64,000 nucleotides of DNA, from positions 1-64,000 of the forward strand of contig JAFLBB010000020.1 of the NCBI GenBank assembly GCA_017304135.1, in the 5' to 3' direction. Below are positions 11,554 to 21,886 of the stretch, piece after piece; positions within the stretch are counted from its first letter, which is position 1, and each line of letters opens with the position of its first letter. This DNA comes from Acidobacteriota bacterium. GTDB lineage: Bacteria > Acidobacteriota > Terriglobia > Bryobacterales > Bryobacteraceae. Below the pieces are notes generated by a model. That model saw only the letters and a program-made list of their open reading frames with translations, did no database searches and was not told the origin of the DNA. The position numbers and the translations under genes were made by a program.

Positions 11554-11995
11554 TCAATTCAAACCCGCCCGCCAGTTGAGTAACACGTCGATGCGATTGT
11601 CGCGGCCCGTAGACGGAGTCGAACGCAGTACAACGAAGCGCTCCCCGTTGCCGAAGGGCTCCGAATAGATCGCGCCATTGTAGGAACTGCTTCCTCCCAG
11701 CGCGAACATCGCCTTCGGCTCTCCCGCCTCGATCCGGTCGCCGACAACCTTCAGCTTCACCGACGTCGGCCGATCGTCCGGCGAATTGTAGAAGAGCGTG
11801 TTGCCATCCGCGCTCCACGCCGGATTCGCGCCGCCCCCCGTGGAGACGCGGATTCTGGGACCGGCCGGCCGTTCGCCCTCCGGCATCGCCCGTACATAAA
11901 TCTTAATTTCTCCCGATGGCAACGGTCCAGTAGACGATGCCCGACGGGTTACGCATCCAGTCGCTAGCCATTTGGCTCTGATCGGAGGTTGAGAC
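11554..11995 (-). pseudogene. C-terminal fragment of a TolB/PD40 propeller protein
   Basis: The minus-strand frame 11922-11554 reads EIKIYVRAMPEGERP, then GGGANPAWSADGNTLFYNS, and ends FVVLRSTPS...VLLNWRAGLN. This is the usual last blade and tail of acidobacterial TolB-like propeller proteins or WD40-carrying protein kinases. Upstream of 11922 the related reading (SQMASDWMRNPSGIVYW) lies in a different frame, so there is probably a frameshift. The gene then stops at the IS630 insertion at 11996. It is a dead remnant without an N-terminus. Confidence 0.7.
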
Positions 11996-11997
11996 TA

Positions 11998-12021
11998 GCC
12001 AATTTTCATGGTTACTATAAG
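11998..12021 (+). repeat. IS630 left terminal inverted repeat
   Basis: Reads inward GCCAATTTTC...ACTATAAGG. It matches the opposite end in the first ten positions except one, and again at ACTATA. It is flanked outside by TA. Confidence 0.75.
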
Positions 12022-12991
12022 GCATAGCCGCAGTATCGGTAGCAAGCCTGTGCGTTCTCGGCGGTGAATGCGGGCAAGGCATCGGCCACCGCCTGCTCCA
12101 GTGCTTCCAGTGACCGCGCTTTGGCTGCCCGCAGCAACTGCTTCACCTGCGACCAACACTTCTCAATCGGGTTGAAGTCCGGCGAGTAGGGCGGCAGATA
12201 CCACAACTCCGCGCCAGCTTCTTCGATCAGCGCCCGCACGCCGTCCACTGTGTGCGCCGACAGGTTGTCCATCACCACGATCTCGCCTGGGCGCAGTTGC
12301 GGACACAACACCTGCTCCAGGTAGCTCAGAAAGACGTCGCCATCGGTGGCGGCCTCGATCGTCATCGTCGCCACCCAACCCGAGACGCGGATCGCTCCCA
12401 GAATCGTCAGCGTCCGCCAGTGGCCTGCCGGCGTGCCTTCTCTTACCCGCTCGCCGCGTGCACCGCGCCCATAACGCCGCGTCATCTCCGTGGTCACTCC
12501 GCTCTCATCCAGAAAGATCAGCCGCGTCGCATCGACCTGGCTGGCTTTCTCTTTCCACTTGCTCCTCCGGAGCCGGACTTCCGCCGTGTCCTGCTCGGCG
12601 GCGTGGAGTGACTTTTTTTCAGCCGCAGTCCCATCCTATCCAGCACCGTCCACAGGCGCGAGATACTCAGCTCCAATTTCCGTTCCTTGCTCAGCCGGGC
12701 CTTCAACTCAGCCAGAGTGAGATCGGGCTGCCTGCGAATCCAGTTCCCCAAGTCCGCCTCCACGGCCGCGGTCACTTTGCTGGCAGGCCCAGATCTGCTT
12801 CTGGCGGGCCGCTCCATCCGGCCAGTCTGCCGCAGGCTGCGCCAGATCTTTTCCGCCCATCCCAGGCTCACTCCAAAGCGGCCAGCCAATGCTTCCAGGC
12901 TGCCTTCCCCTCGTTGATACGCCTCCAAGAACTTTCGGCGTAGGTCATCTGAATAGGCTGCGCCCATATTCGGTCGCGAAAGATCAACCAC
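12015..12991 (-). CDS. IS630-family transposase, expressed by -1 frameshift
   Basis: Two overlapping frames make one transposase. The first (12991-12518; an inner start [13 protein letters not shown] at 12967 is likely) carries helix-turn-helix domains: [20 protein letters not shown], then the second helical unit around [10 protein letters not shown] and [19 protein letters not shown]. The second frame carries the DDE catalytic core: [18 protein letters not shown] and [13 protein letters not shown]. The frames join at a run of seven A (minus strand; T at 12613-12619) just after GLRLKK. A -1 slip there gives the normal family sequence [17 protein letters not shown]. Several IS630 members use such a slip, so the element may still be active; a plain inactivating mutation is the alternative. 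Confidence 0.8.
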
Positions 12992-12998
12992 CAGAGCA

Positions 12999-13022
12999 CC
13001 TATAGTGTCTCAGAAAATGGGC
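12999..13022 (-). repeat. IS630 right terminal inverted repeat
   Basis: On the minus strand it reads inward GCCCATTTTC...ACTATAGG, the partner of the left end. The TA at 13023-13024 completes the target duplication. Confidence 0.75.
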
Positions 13023-13024
13023 TA

Positions 13025-14534
13025 GCGACCACTCCACGGCCTGGTAGGAGTCATTCCCGCCAAGGTCCATGAGAAGGCCAACTCCCATCAGTCCTCCTCC
13101 GCACGACAGGTTCCCCCCACTGTAGCGGTCCTCACCGGCCCGATCGATTAGCACGCTCACGCCAAGCAACCCGCTGGCGGGGCCGGCCGCACCGTTCTCG
13201 CCGAGGTAGCGGTCGTTTCCTGCCCAATCGAGGATGAGTTGCACGCTGGGCCGCGCGTTGCCGGGATAGCGGTAGATGTCGTCTCCCGCCGGATCGATCA
13301 CCACGTCGATGAGCGACATGTCGTACTCGTTGGACCCGAATCCGCCGTAGACGAACCAGCCACCGTCGATGCGCTCTGCCGCGAGGATGTCGCCCTTCAC
13401 GGCGCTCTTGAGTTCGGAGGGAATGGCAGCGAGGGGCACCTTCTGCTGCTGAGGTGGCCCATCTGGCGCACTCCACGCCACCAGAGCATCGGCGGCAGCG
13501 AGGAGACTCCCATAGTCGATAGCCATGCTTGCCTGCCGTGCGCGAACTACCGGCTGTTCTCCAAATCTGTCCGGTTCCAACAGACCACGGGCGTAGGAGT
13601 GAAGGTTCTTGCGAGCAGCGGAGTCCAATTGTGAGAAAGCCCGATCGAGATGGGTGTGAGCCCGGCCGACCATGCCGGCTGCGTCGCGCAGTGCCTGCCG
13701 GGGATTGGCGATGTCGATTCGCTCTTGCTGGGCGGCGGTGAATCTCACATCCAGGTTCTTCGCGGCCTCTGCCAGCAGCGGTTGGGCGGCAGACAGAGGA
13801 TTGTCTTTGTGCCGATCCACGGCGCTTACCAGTGGATCGGTGATGATCGTTTGGAGTTCCGCCAACCTCGTTGGCCGATAGAAGCCATACGCCACACGCG
13901 ACAAAATGTTCGGAGAGTAGTTGGCCTCCATCGCGCCGAGGATGTGCTTGCGGGTCGCAGCCACCGCCGAATCCAACCGGTGCCGGCTGAACTGTTCTTC
14001 CATGAAGCGCTCAAACGAAGTAGGTCCCGCACCCGCGGGGACCACTTGCTCGGGCGCCAGCCGTACGCGCGGCGGGTGCGCGAAATCGATTGGAGCCGCC
14101 CAATCCGCCCAGGTAGCCACGCGCACGGCCAGGCTCGTCTCGGTCTCAGGTTTCGGGCTCGTGCGCAGAAACCGCAGCCGGACCTCGGATCCGGCCGACA
14201 CCCCTTCCATGAATTGCCGGAACTCGGCGGAGGTGTGAATCTCGCGTCCGTTCGCGGAAAGGAGGATGAAGCTCCCACGCGCCCCTGTCCCGAGAGCTTC
14301 GCGGACCGGCCCGGGCCGAAGGACAAACACAAGACATCTCGCTTCGCCGGATTCCGCCTTCTGATCCTGCAAGAGCAGCCCCAGATAGGGCCGCGATGCG
14401 GCGGGCAGACCCGCCTCCAGCATTGGTGTTCCATCCAGCGTCGAGATGACCTGCATGTGTGGCACAACCGGCCGCTGTCCCCAAGCCAGGATCGGCCACA
14501 GCGCGTACACGAGCTTCTTCTTCGTGTCCCTCAC
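13025..14534 (-). pseudogene. PDZ-like / D-repeat secreted protein, 3' end cut off by IS630
   Basis: The gene starts with GTG at 14534, overlapping the TGA of the gene before it as GTGA. It has a signal peptide (KKKLVYALWPILAWGQ). A PDZ-like domain follows at about residues 48-130 (YLGLLLQD..., GSFILLSANGREIHTSAEF), then a helical region of about 250 residues, then repeats of the pattern D-x-x-G-x-D-x-Y (DPAGDDIYRY, DWAGNDRY, DRAGEDRY, DLGGNDSY). The frame runs into the IS630 end directly after the last repeat (EWSLA). The paralogue at 14531-16951 continues for about 300 residues beyond this point, so roughly a third of the protein is lost. It is a close paralogue of its upstream neighbour. 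Confidence 0.75.
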
Positions 14535-16951
14535 CAAAGGCTCACCCTCCTTTTGGTGTCGATGAACAGCCCGTGGAGGGGGCTGTTCTCTGCCTGCGCA
14601 GCCGGTCTTCCGGGTGCAATGGATATCCCGTCGCCGCGGCCCGCCTGCGAATAGAAGTCACTGCTTCCGCCTGCGTCCAGCAGCACGGAAAGAGAGAAGC
14701 ATTGGCACTCCTTGTAGTAGTTGCCGTTCGGTTGCGACTCCCCCATGCCGACGTTATACTCGGGGGCATCGTAGGGCGCATGATCCCGCACGTAGCGGTC
14801 GTGACCATCCAGGTCCAACAATCACGCGATGCTTTGGTGCCCGGCACGACCGAGGCCCCCGATTCGATGGTCGCCTTGATAGCTGTCGTTGCCTCGTCTG
14901 TCGATCAACAACGCCAGTGAGAGATCCCAGGAGCCGGCGATACCGCCCCAGTACGTATCGTCACCGCCGTCATCAGCCAGTATCCCGACCCCGCCGTGTG
15001 CCGATGCTCCCTGACTGTAACGGGTGCCGTAGTAGATGTCGTTTCCACTCCGGTCGTAAAGAATCCCCATCCCGAGCAGCCAGCCGGCGCCCTGGCTCAC
15101 TTCTCCTGCTTCATACCGGTCGTCGCCGGAAAGATCGCAGAGCACACCAATACCACCGGTGTCGAAGAGGCCGTCTCCATACCCAACTCCTTGGCCCGCG
15201 GAATAGGAGACGGTGCGGTCTCCCCAGACCGGTGGCGGCCCACCCAGCCGGTATAGATCCCGCCCGGCTCCGTCCAGGATCAACCCGAAACCGCGTGGGC
15301 CTCCGTACGCTTGGCTTGCTTCCTGCGCCAAATACATATCCGATCCATCGGGATAGGCGTATTTCCCCTTGGTCCTGGCGCTGGGTGGGTCCTCAAGGTC
15401 GACGATCCCGCCGAACCCATAACGGCCGAAGCCCAAAGACCATTTCGTTCCTTTGTAGGTGTCGTTCCCCGCGTGATCCAGGATCAGGCCGACCCCCATC
15501 AGCCCGGCACCGCATGAGCGAAGGCCGCCCTCGTAGCGGTCATCCCCTTGATGATCCACGACGACACTGATGCCCAACATAGCGCTCGCCGGGCCCGGAA
15601 TCTCCCCCTCGGCCGAGTAGACGTCGTTGCCCGCCCAGTCGACAACCAGTTGTATCCGGGGCCTGGCCTTGTCTGAGTAGCGGTAGCGGTCATCCCCTCC
15701 CGCATCGATCACGACATCGATCTTGGACAGATCGTACTCATTGGGACCTGGCCCCCCATACACATACCATCGGCCGTCAATCCGCTCGACGGCGGCCACT
15801 TCACCCTTCACCGCGCCTTCGATCTCTTTCGGAATGGCGACGCTTTGTGCTGCCGCGGGTGGTTCACCGGCAGGGCTCCAAGACGCAATCGAATCGGCGG
15901 CGGCGAAAAGGCCGGAGTAGTCGATCGCCAGACTGGCCATCCGCGCACGCATCGCTGCCGGGGAGCGCCGGGCGGCATCGTCGAGGAGCGCCGGCAACGA
16001 CGTCTGCATCTCATCGAGTGGCGCCGCGCCGACCTTCTCGAAGGCGCGTTCCAGGTGCACGCCTGCCCGGCGGACTATCCCCGACGCGTCTTTCAGCGCC
16101 TGTGCCGGATGAGCCAGATCCATTTGTCCGAGCTTCCCGGCTGCAAAAGAGCTATCCAGATTCCTTGCAGCCTCGGAGAGGATCGGGCCGGCGACGGCCC
16201 AAGGGTTTCCCTTGTTCCGGTCCACTACGGCCGCCAAGGGGCTGGTGATGGATGCCTGAAGTTCAACCATTCGCGTTGGCCGGTGGAATGCGTAGGCAAC
16301 GCGAGCTAACATGTTTTCGCTATAGAAGCGCTCCACTACTCCTGCCAAAAACCGCCGGAGATCGCCGGCCGGCTGCTCGATGCGGAACCTGCTCAGATAC
16401 TTCCCCAGAAACTGCTCGAACCTGGATTGCCCAGGGTGCATCGGGACAATCTCGTCTGGCTTCACACCCAGTGCGGGACGACGAAGTACGTCCAGAGGCG
16501 TGGCCCATTCCGCCCGCGATGCTACACGCACAGAGACGTCAATTTCCTTGTCATCCCGCCTCAACTTCAGCCGCGCTTCGCTTCCAGGCTTGAGCCGGTC
16601 GAGTTCTTGTCCGAAGTGCTGCGCGGAGGTGACCACAGTGCCGTTGAGTGCAAGGATGAAGTCGCCTCTGCGGACTGCATCCGCCTGGAGCGCCGGTCCC
16701 GGCTGCCACATCTGCCGCGCGCGGCAGCGGGACACGCCTGCCTTGTCGAGCTCGTCACCGATGTACAGACCCAGATAGGGCTGCTCGTCCAGGGGCCTCC
16801 GGTCTTCCACTCGTTGGGTGCGGGTTCGGCCATCAACCTCATGCCAGGTAAGCACTTGGGCCAATCCCTGGCCGGTAACCAGAGCGCCGACCGCTGCGAT
16901 CAATAATCTGGTGGTCACCCCGTTCTTGACCCTCATTAGGTTCTTGTTCAT
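14531..16951 (-). pseudogene. PDZ-like protein with D-x-x-G-[DN]-D-x-Y repeats, interrupted by one in-frame TGA
   Basis: The frame opens at ATG 16951 (ATGA overlap with the protease gene) with a signal peptide (TRLLIAAVGALVTGQGLA). It has a PDZ-like domain (YLGLYIGDEL...GDFILALNGTVVTSAQHF), a helical middle, then at least nine repeats spaced about 20-60 residues (DAGGDDRY, DWAGNDVY, DHQGDDRY, DHAGNDTY, DGAGRDLY, DLSGDDRY, DRSGNDIY, DDGGDDTY, DRRGNDSY). After 709 codons a TGA appears at 14824-14822 (GHQSIA-stop). The same frame continues at once with LLDLDGHDRYVRD, another repeat, for 96 more codons to a TGA at 14531. This second stop overlaps the next gene as GTGA. The long form is therefore the ancestral one. 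The TGA may be a nonsense mutation, a sequence error or a readthrough site. A 709-residue product could still be made. Confidence 0.75.
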
Positions 16952-19900
16952 CTCCTCCGCTGATCCGGATACACCGGCCGCTTCGGCTTCGGAACAGGGT
17001 GCTTTGCCAAATCAGCCAGCACGACTTCGATCGCCTTGTCGAGTTGTGGGTCCTTGCCTTCACGCACCAGCTTCGGGTCCTGGTCCACTTCGAAATCCGG
17101 CGGCACACCGACATTCTCCAAGTCCCAAACGCCATCGGGATTCCAACTCAGGCCGCTCGGTACGACCACGAAGCCGCCATCCAGAAGCGCGGGAACGCTC
17201 GCCCACAGGCCCACGACACCGCCCCATGTCCGCGTCCCAACCAGTTTGCCGGCCTTCGCGCGCCGGAAGTACCAGGGGAGAAGGTCTCCGCCGGACCCGG
17301 AGAATTCATTGATGATCATCACCTTGGGACCGGGGATGGCCGACGGCTGTGGGAAATCCGCGCCGCTCCGGGTAGTGGTGAAATTCATCGGCTTGCGCAG
17401 CAGGTACTCGACAATGTCGGTGGCGTGCTCTCCTCCGCCGTTGAAGCGTTCGTCAATGATAGCGGCTTGCTTCTCCGCCTGTGCGTAGAATTCACGCATG
17501 AACCGCCGCGCGCCTTCCGCGGCCGTGTCAGGCAGGTAGATGTAGGCCACCCTGCCATTGGTCGATGAATCGACCTTCCTCCGGTTTACCTCCACCCATT
17601 CGGCATGGCGCAGACTCGCCTCGCTCGCAATAGGCACGGCAGTAGTCTCTCGCGCGTTCGCCCCATCCGGCGTCGCGGCCACTCGGATCTTCGTCGGCTT
17701 GCCTGCCTTGCCTTTGAAGAACTCGAAGAAGTTGTCCTCCGCCAGCAGTTCTCTTCCATCAACGGACAACAGGAAATCGCCGGCGGCCACATCGACAGCT
17801 GGCTGCGCCAGCGGCGCTACCACCTCCTGATTCCAATTCTCGCCACGCAAGATCCTCGCGAACCGGTAACGGCCCTCCTCGACGTGATAATCCGCACCAA
17901 GCAGCCCGGCCGCCGCCTCCCGGACTTCCGACCGTTGCTCACCTCCACCCACGCTGAGGTGTCCCACCGAAAGTTCCCCCAGCGCTTCGGCGAGCAGATA
18001 GTTCAAATCGCGCCGCGAGCCCAAGCCGTCCAGGAAAATCGCGTACCGCTCGCTCACGGCACCGGGTTCCAGCCCGTGGTAGTTCGGGTCATAGAAGAAA
18101 TCGCGAATCAGCCTCCACGCCTCACGATAGATCTGAGCCCACTCCTCCTTCGGTACGGAGCGAACCTCGACCCCATCGGTCTTCAGCACGCTTTCTTTCC
18201 CGCCCGCCCGCGCAATGGTCCAGAATCCGCTCTGCCGCCAGAGCAGCGTCTCCGTTTTCGCTTCGACGACGAATTCGCGCACGCCCGATGCGACCACCGT
18301 CGAAGATCGGCCCGCAACGGCGAGCCGCCTGATCGTCATCACCCTCGGACGACGGGGATCCTCGACTTCTTTCGCAAACAGGATCCCGGCCGCTCCCGTC
18401 TTCAATTCCGCGTACCGCCCGGCTGGAAACGGCAGCGAGACGATCCGGCGGCTGAGCCCTTCCACATCCACGCTTCCCGATAACGAGGAGGCTTGGCTCG
18501 ACAACACCGCCGCGTAGATCCGGTTATTCACTCCCCGCTCGAAATTGAGAACATCGATTTCGCGGCTCGGGCCTGACTCCGTGCTCGCCAGGAAATAGAG
18601 GCGGCTGCCATCACGGTCGAACACCGGATGAGATGCGTCCGCCATCGCGTCCGTCACCTGAGTGCTCTTGCCTGTGTCCAAGGAGTACAGATGGATGCCT
18701 CCGAGACGGCTCGGCTGCTGCCGGCGATAGGCGAGCCACTTGCCGTCGGGTGACCAGGAAGGCGCAAGACTGGTCTCCCACTGGTAGAGGTCGCGATCGA
18801 CCAGCACGGGCCTCTTCTGCTCAACATCCACGTACCAGAGCCCGAGATGATTGTCGACGTAGGCGATCCGCCGGCTGTCCGGAGACCACACCGGCGATTG
18901 ATAGAAGACCGGCCGGTCCGCCAGCCGGATCTTGTTTAGCTTGCTTCCATCCGGAGACCGGAGGTGCAGCTCGTATTCCCCGGATTCGTCCGAAAAGTAC
19001 GCAATCCACTCGCCGTTCGGCGACCACGCCGGGTCGCGTTCGGCAACGCCGGCCGTCTTGGTCAGCACTCTCGATTCGCCGGTTCCCGCGTTGAGCACCA
19101 GGATCTCTCCGCGCGCTTCTGCGACAACCTCCGCGCCATTCGGGGACAGTGAGGCGTGGACCAGCATGTCGCCGGCCTTAACCGTACCCGGCTTGATTTG
19201 AGACAGGTCCTCCGTGATTCGAATCGGCACGCGCCGCGGCTTGCCGCTCTTCAGGTCGAACAGGTGCAAAGAGCCGAACTGCTCATAGACAATCGCCCCG
19301 GGACCCGCCGAGGCCCACTTCACGTCGAAGCCCCTGTTGTCGACAACCTTCGTCACTTGCTTGCTGGTGGTCTCGTAGCGGAACAGCGTCGTTGGCCCAT
19401 CACGGTCCGAGAGGAAGTAGATGGAGTCGCCAACCCACATCGGGTGAACGTCGTTTGAGTTCTTTCGGGGAATCGGCGCGACGCTGGAGTCGCTTAGCTC
19501 AGCTAACAGGATTCCACGAGTCGAACCGCCTCGATACCTCTTCCAGGTGTTGAAGAAGACATGCCCGCGAGGTGTGTAAGCGAAGCGCCTTCCATCAGGC
19601 GAGTACGAACCATCACCTGCGATCGGCAGCGGGATCTCCTCTTCGAAGCCGCCCTCAATCGGGGCCGTGTAGAGTTTCATTGCCCCAAGATGAGCCTGCT
19701 CGCGTCCGCGCCCCGACGCTAGCACGACTCGCCGCCCGTCGGGAGTCCATCCGACAGGCACGTCGAGCTCAGGGTGAAAGGTCAGCCTGCGCCAGGAACC
19801 CCCGCTGGCTGGCATGACAAAGACGTCGAAGTTCCCGGCCTGGGCGGCGGCAAAGGCAATTTGTGTCCCGTCCGGCGAAAAGGCTGGAGCCGTTTCGAGG

Positions 19901-20097
19901 CCGGGAGCGCTCGTCAACCGCCGCGCTTCTCCCCCTTCGCGAGGGACGATCCATAGGTCGTCGGCAAAAACAAACGTGATGTGCGTGGCGCTCAGCGCCG
20001 GCCGCTGGAGCAGGAGCGGCTTCTCGTCACCGCGCGCTAGCGCAGCCGCGCAAACACAACCGAAGATCGTCAAGCTCAGAAGTCGAGCGCTTTGCAT
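16948..20097 (-). CDS. Tricorn-like secreted protease (PD40 propellers, PDZ, S41 peptidase)
   Basis: A 1049-residue protein with a signal peptide (LLSLTIFGCVCAAALARG). Two beta-propeller regions built from PD40/TolB blades (AFSPDGTQIAFAA, AWSPNGEWIAYFS, SWSPDGKWLAYRR) fill about residues 30-600. A helical cap follows (WRLIRDFFYDPNYHG), then a PDZ domain (VDVAAGDFLLSVDGREL) and an S41 protease core. Active-site-like elements are VGHLSV (His region), NEFSGSGGD around residues 932-938 (serine region; Ser935 is the likely nucleophile) and LENVGVPPD (acidic residue). Domain order and length match Tricorn protease homologues, which trim peptides. Here it is exported, probably periplasmic, and encoded with an amidohydrolase and two PDZ-like proteins. 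Confidence 0.88.
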   Translation of the reverse strand: MQSARLLSLTIFGCVCAAALARGDEKPLLLQRPALSATHITFVFADDLWIVPREGGEARRLTSAPGLETAPAFSPDGTQIAFAAAQAGNFDVFVMPASGGSWRRLTFHPELDVPVGWTPDGRRVVLASGRGREQAHLGAMKLYTAPIEGGFEEEIPLPIAGDGSYSPDGRRFAYTPRGHVFFNTWKRYRGGSTRGILLAELSDSSVAPIPRKNSNDVHPMWVGDSIYFLSDRDGPTTLFRYETTSKQVTKVVDNRGFDVKWASAGPGAIVYEQFGSLHLFDLKSGKPRRVPIRITEDLSQIKPGTVKAGDMLVHASLSPNGAEVVAEARGEILVLNAGTGESRVLTKTAGVAERDPAWSPNGEWIAYFSDESGEYELHLRSPDGSKLNKIRLADRPVFYQSPVWSPDSRRIAYVDNHLGLWYVDVEQKRPVLVDRDLYQWETSLAPSWSPDGKWLAYRRQQPSRLGGIHLYSLDTGKSTQVTDAMADASHPVFDRDGSRLYFLASTESGPSREIDVLNFERGVNNRIYAAVLSSQASSLSGSVDVEGLSRRIVSLPFPAGRYAELKTGAAGILFAKEVEDPRRPRVMTIRRLAVAGRSSTVVASGVREFVVEAKTETLLWRQSGFWTIARAGGKESVLKTDGVEVRSVPKEEWAQIYREAWRLIRDFFYDPNYHGLEPGAVSERYAIFLDGLGSRRDLNYLLAEALGELSVGHLSVGGGEQRSEVREAAAGLLGADYHVEEGRYRFARILRGENWNQEVVAPLAQPAVDVAAGDFLLSVDGRELLAEDNFFEFFKGKAGKPTKIRVAATPDGANARETTAVPIASEASLRHAEWVEVNRRKVDSSTNGRVAYIYLPDTAAEGARRFMREFYAQAEKQAAIIDERFNGGGEHATDIVEYLLRKPMNFTTTRSGADFPQPSAIPGPKVMIINEFSGSGGDLLPWYFRRAKAGKLVGTRTWGGVVGLWASVPALLDGGFVVVPSGLSWNPDGVWDLENVGVPPDFEVDQDPKLVREGKDPQLDKAIEVVLADLAKHPVPKPKRPVYPDQRRR

Positions 20098-20128: not shown

Positions 20129-21403
20129 TCATGGCCTGCGGATCACCGCACCGCCCTTCATCACGAACCGCGCCCTGAGCAACTCGGCGGTGTCAACGAG
20201 CGGGTCGCCGGCGAATCCGATGATATCGGCGAGTTTTCCTGCTTCCAGGGATCCAATCTGTTTCTGCAGCCCCAGCAGCTCGGCGGCGTTCACGGTTGCG
20301 GAACGGATCACCTCGATAGGCGGCATACCCGCTTGGCTGTAAGACATCAGGCCCGACAACGCTGCCATGCCGCGGCTCCAGGTGGGATTCCGAGTATAGG
20401 CGTCGGAACCGAAGGCGACCCGTACACCTGCTTTCAAGGCTTGCTCCACGCGTCCATATCTACGTTTCCGCATCCGTTCGACCTCATCGGGAGTCATGCC
20501 AGATGCGCTCTTCCAAATGTCATCGCTCTCCATGTCGGGTTCCGTGAGCACCAAGAAGATTCTCTTCTCAGCCATCGACTTTAGTGTGGCTTCAGCAATG
20601 AAGTAGCCATGCTCGATCGAGTCGACACCGGCATCGACTGCCGCCTTGGCCGCCGGATCACCAACGGCATGCGCCGCGATTCTCTTGCCCGCCCGGTGCG
20701 CCTCGTCGGTGGCGACCTTCACTTCTTCCGGCGAGAGAACGCCCCCAAACAAACTCACGTAGATTTTGATGCAGTCGGCGCCATCGGACACAGCCTGTCT
20801 AACAGCCTTCCTGACCTCGTCCGGTCCAGAGGCGAATGCGAACTCTTCGCTATCGACGAGCGATTGCGCTTGTGGTGGCAGACCTCGGAAAAGAGTAAAG
20901 AGAGGGCTGATGGCCCGAGTGGAAACAACCATCCGCGGGCCGACCACCCAGCCTGACTTGATCGCGTCACGCAACGCCACGTCGCCGTTGCGGCCGGAGT
21001 TGCCAAGATCACGGACTGTGGTCACGCCCATCTCAAGCGCCTCGCGGGCTAGCTTCGCGCCCAGCAGTGCGCGGTGCGCGGTACTGAGTCGAGCGAGAGT
21101 GAGAATCGCGCTCGCCCCTTCACCCCCAGCCGCGGGGTCAAATTCCGAAAGGAGATGGCTATGACAGTCGATGAGCCCGGGCAGAAGGGTGAGAGAGCCG
21201 AAATCGATGATCTCCGCCCCCGCGACCACTTTGTCGCCGAACTCCACCGCCTTGATTCGGTCGCCCGAGATTACGATCGATGGCCGTTGAAGGTACTGCC
21301 CTGTTTTTGGATCGAGCATCCGGGCTGCACGAATTACCTTGAGAGCGGGTTGTGCAGCGGCAAATCCGCTCAGGGCCGCGAGGACAACAACAATTCGGAG
21401 CAT
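20129..21403 (-). CDS. Secreted amidohydrolase (prolidase/imidazolonepropionase-like)
   Basis: A 424-residue protein starting at ATG 21403, where a signal peptide begins (MLRIVVVLAALSGFAAAQ). An ATG at 21424 would add seven residues. The metal-dependent amidohydrolase fold is clear: the metal-binding HxH in PGLIDCHSHLL, the barrel strand lysine region ADCIKIYVS, the later histidines IAAHAVGD and SIEHG, and the catalytic Asp in VAFGSDAY. The C-terminal hydrolase tail is typical (LEAGKLADIIGFAGDPL). Relatives include Xaa-Pro dipeptidases and imidazolonepropionase-like proteins. It is 31 nt upstream of the Tricorn-like protease gene and probably acts on the peptides that enzyme releases. Confidence 0.85.
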   Translation of the reverse strand: MLRIVVVLAALSGFAAAQPALKVIRAARMLDPKTGQYLQRPSIVISGDRIKAVEFGDKVVAGAEIIDFGSLTLLPGLIDCHSHLLSEFDPAAGGEGASAILTLARLSTAHRALLGAKLAREALEMGVTTVRDLGNSGRNGDVALRDAIKSGWVVGPRMVVSTRAISPLFTLFRGLPPQAQSLVDSEEFAFASGPDEVRKAVRQAVSDGADCIKIYVSLFGGVLSPEEVKVATDEAHRAGKRIAAHAVGDPAAKAAVDAGVDSIEHGYFIAEATLKSMAEKRIFLVLTEPDMESDDIWKSASGMTPDEVERMRKRRYGRVEQALKAGVRVAFGSDAYTRNPTWSRGMAALSGLMSYSQAGMPPIEVIRSATVNAAELLGLQKQIGSLEAGKLADIIGFAGDPLVDTAELLRARFVMKGGAVIRRP

Positions 21404-21521
21404 GCTACCGCGCCAGCCTAACATGGCCGATAGTAGAAGCGCCAGAGGACCCCTTCGTGGTCCTGTACTGGCATTACTGGACATGTGGCTCCGTCCGCTC
21501 TGAACGTGTGCTCGCCGTTCT

Positions 21522-21886
21522 TCACGCCGCCATCCGACGACGAACCTGGCGCTGTACTCGGGCCTCTTCCAACTGCCCATCTCGCCGGGCATGGATCTCA
21601 GCCTGACGCCTGGCGAGCATGTCTCTCGGCGTGATGTAGCCGATGGCGCTGTTCAGGCGGACGTTGTTGTCATGCTCCACGTAGCCCGGCACAAGTCGTC
21701 GCGCGTCTTCCAGCGACAGCGGGGTCCCCGGTCGGATGCACTCTCCTTTGAGCGATTTGTGCCAACGTTCGATTTTCCCGTTCGATTGCGGATAGTACGG
21801 CGAGGTGCTGACGTGCGTCATGCCCGAGATCCGAATGAACTCCTTGAAGTCCTTAGCGATGAACTGCGGTCCGTTGTACTCTCCTG
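21522..21886 (-). pseudogene. IS3-family transposase (OrfB) C-terminal remnant
   Basis: The minus-strand frame reads NGPQFIAKDFKEFIRISGM, then HVSTSPYYPQSNGKIERWHK and CIRPGTPLSLEDARRL, the end of an IS3-type integrase core. The catalytic Glu is in GKIERW. Upstream of about 21886 the frame meets a stop and homology ends, so both other catalytic residues and the first ORF are missing. It is a dead fragment between the peptidase cluster and the respiratory operon. Confidence 0.75.

Follow-up and report, generated by a model that had tools for sequence, protein, structure and literature searches.

A widespread predicted beta-helix domain with a putative calcium ladder, encoded by neighbouring paralogues in an acidobacterial genome

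Repeat domain and predicted fold of the two paralogues

Here, we analyse two adjoining paralogues on the minus strand of a 64,000-nucleotide stretch (contig JAFLBB010000020.1, positions 1 to 64,000, assembly GCA_017304135.1; hereafter the window) from a member of the Bryobacteraceae in the phylum Acidobacteriota. They encode proteins of 709 amino acids (aa; window 14822-16951) and 517 aa (12984-14537) that share a repeat domain, and we infer from a fold model and by analogy with a known structure that this domain is most likely a calcium-binding solenoid. The repeat motif recorded in an initial annotation of this DNA proved far too frequent for chance. DxxGxDxY occurs nine times in the 709-aa protein, eight of these with D or N at position 5, and four times in the 517-aa protein, three of them with D or N there, as compared to means of 0.022 and 0.0036 and maxima of 2 and 1 in 5000 shuffles each. 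The glycine-rich [LIV]-G-[IV] lead-in described there was also recovered, as G-x-G-x-[LIV]-x-D stands directly ahead of the motif. Successive motifs are 22-28 residues apart in regular turns of the domain; two wider gaps in the 709-aa protein, of 46 and 68 residues, represent one conserved insert and one turn with a deviating motif. Separately, the fifth acidic loop of this protein carries a 14-residue insert (residues 521-534; window 15350-15391, minus strand) of low model confidence, which is common to at most two of 79 family rows.

The first paralogue is a PDZ domain protein by both model and fold match: Pfam PDZ_2 covers residues 84-143 with an E-value of 5.6e-9, exceeding the curated cut-off, and HtrA PDZ structures align on the protein model over residues 46-150 with Z up to 13.9. 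The PDZ-like domain initially annotated thus stands for the first protein, while the PDZ_2 match of the second (E 0.0054) stays under the cut-off. The features of the two genes are:

14822..16951, minus strand: paralogue 1 (P0001, 709 aa), with a signal-like N-terminus, PDZ domain, helical domain and predicted beta-helix turns 1-10, ending at an in-frame TGA
16502..16816, minus strand: PDZ domain of paralogue 1, residues 46-150, from Pfam PDZ_2 and HtrA PDZ structure matches
15881..16501, minus strand: all-helical domain of paralogue 1, residues about 151-357, from DSSP of the AlphaFold2 model
14825..15826, minus strand: repeat domain of paralogue 1, residues 376-709, predicted beta-helix turns 1-10, from motif, conservation, AlphaFold2 model and structure match
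14924..15022, minus strand: segment of paralogue 1 with the putative site residues R644, Y645, H652, W675 and D676, from family conservation
14534..14821, minus strand: 96 codons that extend the frame past the TGA and resemble the last turns of a 910-aa paralogue, overlapped by a profile match at 14612-15829
13030..14537, minus strand: native part of paralogue 2 (P0002), with a PDZ-like domain, helical domain and the first four repeat motifs, cut by an insertion element

The repeats are one fixed domain of about 12 turns of 26-27 residues, eleven regular and the twelfth divergent, with one conserved insert after turn 6. Motif spacing was nearly constant in 83 open reading frames (ORFs) of 80 loci, at about 22, 27, 26, 26, 27, 47, 27, 27, 28, 27 and then 33-39 residues, with skipped or variant motifs and differing insert lengths in some ORFs. 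The best profile matches listed for the planctomycete phylum mostly span almost all 395 positions. Constant spacing and near-full-length matches therefore indicate a domain of fixed length and not a growing array. Several distant members from the host phylum share this layout, although their insert after turn 6 is longer.

Family features were read from alignments of 78 of 82 plus-strand family ORFs with the window protein (A4; L103, L112, L116 and L121 omitted), of 77 of 82 ORFs with the window segment (A6; the same four and L104 omitted) and of 57 of 82 ORFs (A5). The helical domain ahead of the repeats is occupied in 88-96% of weighted family rows at the positions reported and is weakly conserved, with only P225 high (97%). 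Accessory modules vary: among 57 members, Pfam detected PDZ_2 in 25, HEAT_2 in three and Exo_endo_phos in three. HEAT was C-terminal in members scanned singly, and Exo_endo_phos N-terminal in two scanned singly. Two Phycisphaerales members (L052:8678-11206 and L055:1477-4080) have an N-terminal Exo_endo_phos and no PDZ match. With start codons set by rule, a hydrophobic segment lies within the first 70 residues of 63/78 family ORFs versus 215/569 neighbouring ORFs. On these statistics the family proteins are likely exported, and the N-terminal position of the hydrophobic stretch may point to Sec export rather than to type I secretion with a C-terminal signal.

Structure prediction, proposed as a check in the initial annotation, returned a confident parallel beta-helix both for the window protein (AlphaFold2 mean predicted local distance difference test score, pLDDT, 92.0; predicted template modelling score, pTM, 0.91) and for the complete domain of a planctomycete relative (pLDDT 95.4, pTM 0.94). 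Each modelled turn consists of a six-residue strand up to the first Asp (GxGxLxD), a tight loop (xxG[ND]D), a short strand round Tyr (xYx) and a third short segment near Gln, so that the DxxGxD motif occurs once per turn. The aligner VIA-align placed 3p4g, the Ca2+-bound antifreeze region IV of Marinomonas primoryensis, on top for both models. The match had Z 16.1 and a root-mean-square deviation (rmsd) of 3.9 over 241 aligned residues for the window protein, and Z 22.1 and rmsd 3.3 over 270 for the complete domain, where the next of 40 chains reached Z 17.6, 4.5 lower. The domain is thus predicted to be a parallel beta-helix of the type of this antifreeze region, in which each turn contributes a single acidic loop to one edge. 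Of the solenoid, perhaps calcium-binding, that had been suggested from the sequence, the solenoid is now backed by confident models and by a match to a Ca2+-bound, RTX-type structure; binding of the metal itself is deduced.

Putative metal ladder and conserved site

Both motif Asp residues are conserved in at least 92% of 79 rows in each of turns 1-10. The two Asp per loop would stack along one edge of the rod and most likely hold a row of Ca2+. Calcium is the best candidate because carboxylates aligned along an edge would repel one another without a cation and because the core G-[ND]-D-x-hydrophobic equals the loop of the Marinomonas domain. As in the latter, such a row could lock the domain in its fold outside the cytoplasm.

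Strong conservation beyond motif and Gly is confined to the middle of the rod. Among the non-motif, non-Gly columns of turns 1-11, scored over 78 rows with a cut-off of 0.80 weighted conservation, eleven passed (L045 numbering): Q161 in turn 5; Q202 and R209 in turn 6; F233, Q235 and Y239 in turn 7; R259, Y260, Q262 and H267 in turn 8; and D295 in turn 9. They represent 11 of 106 columns in turns 5-9, as compared to 0 of 67 in turns 1-4 and 0 of 40 in turns 10-11. Removal of the recurrent Gln leaves seven columns (R, F, Y, R, Y, H, D), each of which falls within turns 6-9. H267 and D295, which correspond to H652 and D676 of the window protein, occupy the same place in consecutive turns; the His is present in 79/79 rows and the Asp in 99%. 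This pattern of conservation points to one ligand or catalytic site in turns 6-9, with a domain interface as the main rival.

Gene copies, distribution and neighbourhood

Both window copies are incomplete. The 517-aa gene is interrupted by an IS630-type insertion sequence (IS) whose transposase is split in two frames (12015-12991; Pfam DDE_3, E 4.2e-34, and weaker helix-turn-helix matches). A perfect 10-nucleotide inverted repeat at 11960-11969 and 13020-13029 brackets the transposase pieces. Two further perfect 10-nucleotide inverted pairs occur in the stretch, so repeat length alone is weak evidence for element ends, and we take this pair as the IS ends because it flanks the transposase and the match extends a few bases more. 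Within window 11554-13029 (minus strand), the element links the interrupted repeat gene to a short frame whose PD40 match is sub-threshold and which is not the remainder of the repeat gene; because this remainder is absent beyond the element, the IS marks a rearrangement. The 709-aa frame ends at a TGA (14822-14824) that is followed in frame by 96 more codons resembling the 910-aa copy, and the family profile aligns across it, from position 4 to 386 of 395 (window 14612-15829, one TGA inside). This TGA may reflect either a recent nonsense mutation or an error in the assembly.

The third and longest copy (910 aa; L005:10102-12834) lies on the same contig and begins about 10 kb beyond the end of the window. 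When the genome itself was searched at E up to 10, these three copies and one PDZ-only match (E 0.08) were returned. The copies inside the window have the appearance of duplicates in decay. The 910-aa copy is preceded, at L005:3203-9684, by genes that we take to be transposase-like and by what we take to be a DUF1800/DUF1501-like pair. A near-identical copy in L043 likewise has ahead of it a fragment that resembles the second of these transposases.

A single 78-row profile detected the repeat domain in 114 of the 294 genomes sampled from the planctomycete phylum (the phylum of the genome bearing L044, a record labelled uncultured planctomycete). None of the family libraries that we searched contains an entry for it. 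This profile also matched 14 of 396 sampled genomes of the host phylum, own genome included and G207 only via a 68-residue match (E 3e-4), and 1 of 61 kin genomes, namely the own genome; a smaller profile matched 13 of the 396. Matches per genome numbered one or two in six genomes viewed singly and up to six among planctomycete-phylum genomes. A scan of genome contigs with the motif pattern gave at least 585 stretches, of which at least 515 were confirmed, and supplied the 80 loci analysed here. Viral contigs yielded 72 pattern matches, 0 of them confirmed, and plasmids gave no match. By record label, carriers include anammox bacteria (Brocadia, Kuenenia), Nitrospirae and others, as well as rumen Thermoguttaceae and a Thermotogota bin.

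The tree comprises 78 of 80 intended sequences, with L105 and L117 each represented by their second copy only, and 73 of the 78 rows fall into 17 phylum-level groups. One starred clade unites this genome's three copies with a Bryobacterales sequence that has 98% identity to the third; it nests in a larger starred set, where it is joined first by planctomycete rows and next by pseudomonadote rows. This topology suggests one acquisition, then duplication, for this genome's copies.

Upstream of paralogue 1 are a Tricorn-like protease and an amidohydrolase, the neighbours initially annotated, as Pfam affirmed. Together with the insertion element, the features flanking the repeat genes are:

16948..20097, minus strand: Tricorn-like S41 protease, whose stop codon overlaps the paralogue 1 start (ATGA)
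20129..21592, minus strand: amidohydrolase; best NCBIfam match a Xaa-Pro dipeptidase model, under its cut-off
11960..13029, minus strand: IS630-type element ending paralogue 2, with transposase frames 12015-12497 and 12518-12991, DDE_3 and inverted ends

The overlapping genes lie on the same strand and may be co-transcribed here. Neighbourhoods were compared for 76 of 80 loci (L056, L062, L068 and L075 not anchored), many of them on short contigs, and partner gene clusters were present in at most 10 loci. A Tricorn relative adjoins the repeat gene in 1 of the 76 other loci (L116), with weak matches two genes away in L087 and L093, and an amidohydrolase in none, with one weak match eight genes away in L044. 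The linkage to both neighbours, which the initial annotation had suggested checking, is therefore not conserved. Tricorn relatives themselves occur in 15 of 31 kin-group genomes, own included, at E 1e-100.

Elsewhere in the window, 40640-62157 (plus strand) holds five tandem cassettes of genes of about 630, 225 and 680 aa. The two cassettes scanned encode a histidine kinase, an OmpR-type regulator and a PD40 propeller protein with TPR; in the fifth cassette the third gene is missing among the listed ORFs.

Interpretation and comparison with known systems

We propose that the family consists of exported proteins with a Ca2+-ladder beta-helix and one ligand or catalytic site, a reading to which we assign a probability of about 0.6. 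The domain would be a rod of about twelve turns and set length, preceded by the helical domain in nearly all aligned members and combined with varying PDZ, HEAT and endonuclease/phosphatase-type modules. The residues of turns 6-9 (Arg, Phe, Tyr, Arg-Tyr, His, Trp/His-Asp) would bind a ligand outside the cell or in the envelope, on which they may also act and for which a polysaccharide is our best guess. Several observations weigh against this proposal. Foldseek with the domain alone found no significant match in the PDB at E 0.001 (best E 0.28; 3p4g at E 1.2), so the similarity to 3p4g depends on VIA-align as a second-look aligner. Metal coordination cannot be that of canonical RTX, because Gly4 and Gly5 of the latter are Asp and a variable residue here. 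The site residues are placed in one patch solely by their register in neighbouring turns of the model. Some of them are replaced in this genome's two longer copies (R594 to G, F618 to V or Y, Y624 to W or F), and in a wider 12-row set the His is missing in L026 and L029 (2/12), while the Asp is kept in 12/12. Finally, no gene neighbourhood recurs across the 76 loci.

The strongest competitor, to which we give about half the weight of our proposal, is a purely structural Ca2+-stabilised rod, such as an envelope spacer, adhesin or scaffold, in which the residues of turns 6-9 would serve only to anchor the helical domain, the insert of turn 6 or a partner protein and would bind no small ligand. 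A helical domain in nearly all rows, the defined domain arrangement implied by the full-length pTM of 0.91, and PDZ and HEAT as protein-binding module types would all fit such a role. P225 is, however, the only strongly conserved position of the helical domain, which leaves no conserved mating surface there, and an invariant His with a 99% conserved Asp exceeds the apparent packing need. Somewhat less probable still is a beta-helix enzyme of the polysaccharide lyase or epimerase type with the Tyr/His/Asp/Arg cluster as active site. The parallel beta-helix shared with the AlgE6 epimerase module and polygalacturonase and the conserved Arg, Tyr, His and Asp would suit it; the lack of a sequence match to any such family, the lack of a recurrent neighbourhood, the replacement of R594 and Y624 in this genome's copies and the two wider members without the His argue against it.

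The initial annotation placed the proteins with the Tricorn-like protease and the amidohydrolase and supposed that they may present or bind peptides, and we consider such a peptide-handling partner of the protease improbable. The ATGA overlap, the PDZ domain and the Tricorn relative beside L116 speak for it. Against it stand the single adjacency and the absence of adjoining amidohydrolases among the 76 other loci, the restriction of the repeat domain to one of 61 kin genomes, the commonness of Tricorn relatives where it was not found, and, by eye, no Tricorn-like frame beside the third copy of the same genome. Ice binding was considered, because the best fold match is an antifreeze domain, and is rejected as very improbable. 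The Thr array of the Marinomonas repeat, as given in the available portion of PMC3492233, has no counterpart here, Thr being outside the top three residues at the equivalent loop position of turns 1-10, and the carriers by label include the rumen and Thermotogota records named above. It is tempting to go further than the exported, site-bearing beta-helix that we favour and to propose a new family of extracellular enzymes or receptors in which a fixed Ca2+-ladder beta-helix of some 12 turns, its turns 6-9 bearing a near-invariant His-Asp pair as well as Arg, Tyr and aromatic residues, would act on a polymer of the envelope or the environment, across some 17 phyla and in over a third of sampled planctomycete genomes; we regard this as less likely than not.

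No named family had been recognised for the repeats, and none emerged from the profile searches that had been suggested; the unambiguous match to a characterised repeat family that would have refuted the initial annotation thus did not arise at the sequence level. Pfam, NCBIfam and PHROGs gave nothing over the repeats of the window proteins, only the PDZ domain of the first and a few sub-threshold matches in the second. A PDB sequence search with the single protein gave PDZ matches and weak ribosomal-protein S5 matches (E 0.7-1, residues 549-578), and one with two family profiles gave no match. Foldseek returned only HtrA-type PDZ proteins among the 50 best PDB matches of the whole protein, and nothing at E 0.001 for the domain against viral models. 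These absences from Foldseek, PDB-sequence and library searches exclude no family. A search of the open-access literature found no paper on the motif, on calcium-binding beta-solenoids of Planctomycetes or on beta-helix proteins with PDZ domains from that group, and the family is undescribed within this scope.

Its closest likeness is region IV of the M. primoryensis antifreeze protein (MpAFP). In the available portion of PMC3492233 the repeat of region IV is given as xGTGNDxuxuGGxuxGxux, and in that of PMC6891781 the Ca2+ row of MpAFP lies on one side only. Both domains are parallel beta-helices of about 12 turns, by prediction for the family, in which every turn places one G-[ND]-D-x-hydrophobic loop on the same edge, and on present evidence the domain would work like the MpAFP beta-solenoid. 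The family differs by turns of 26-27 residues versus 19 (19-21 for the class), an extra near-invariant Asp at the loop start, the lack of a conserved Thr/Asx ice-binding array, a fixed insert after turn 6, a conserved site and a common N-terminal hydrophobic segment, and there is no sequence match. With RTX repeats (PF00353), whose nonapeptide is XUXGGXGXD in the available portion of PMC6891781, it shares the GxD half-site and stacked Asp on successive turns, but it has one motif per 26-27 residues versus two per 18 in RTX, with Asp for RTX Gly4 and a variable residue for Gly5. PF00353 gave no match to either window protein at E up to 1 and was not listed for 57 relatives at E up to 0.01, and by Pfam model and nonapeptide layout the family is not a member of RTX.

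Right-handed beta-helix proteins resemble it in fold, namely the AlgE6 module (5lw3, Z 16.1), polygalacturonase (7e56, Z 12.4) and Cthe_2159 (4phb, Z 10.4), and so do the secretion domains of the TpsA proteins HMW1 (2odl, Z 17.4) and EtpA (8cpk, Z 17.6); none of them matches the family in sequence. Pectin-lyase-type families had no Pfam or NCBIfam match in the window proteins, and none was listed in Pfam for the 57 relatives. A regular Asp ladder in each turn is not known to be typical of the right-handed beta-helix proteins named above. Should the Ca2+ ladder and the site prove real, the family would represent a new way to build metal-locked extracellular beta-helices of defined length and would offer a concrete site for finding a ligand or reaction. 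What is new here is a widespread domain with one conserved site; as compared to the known systems, the family is an unnamed, fixed-length variant within a known fold class.

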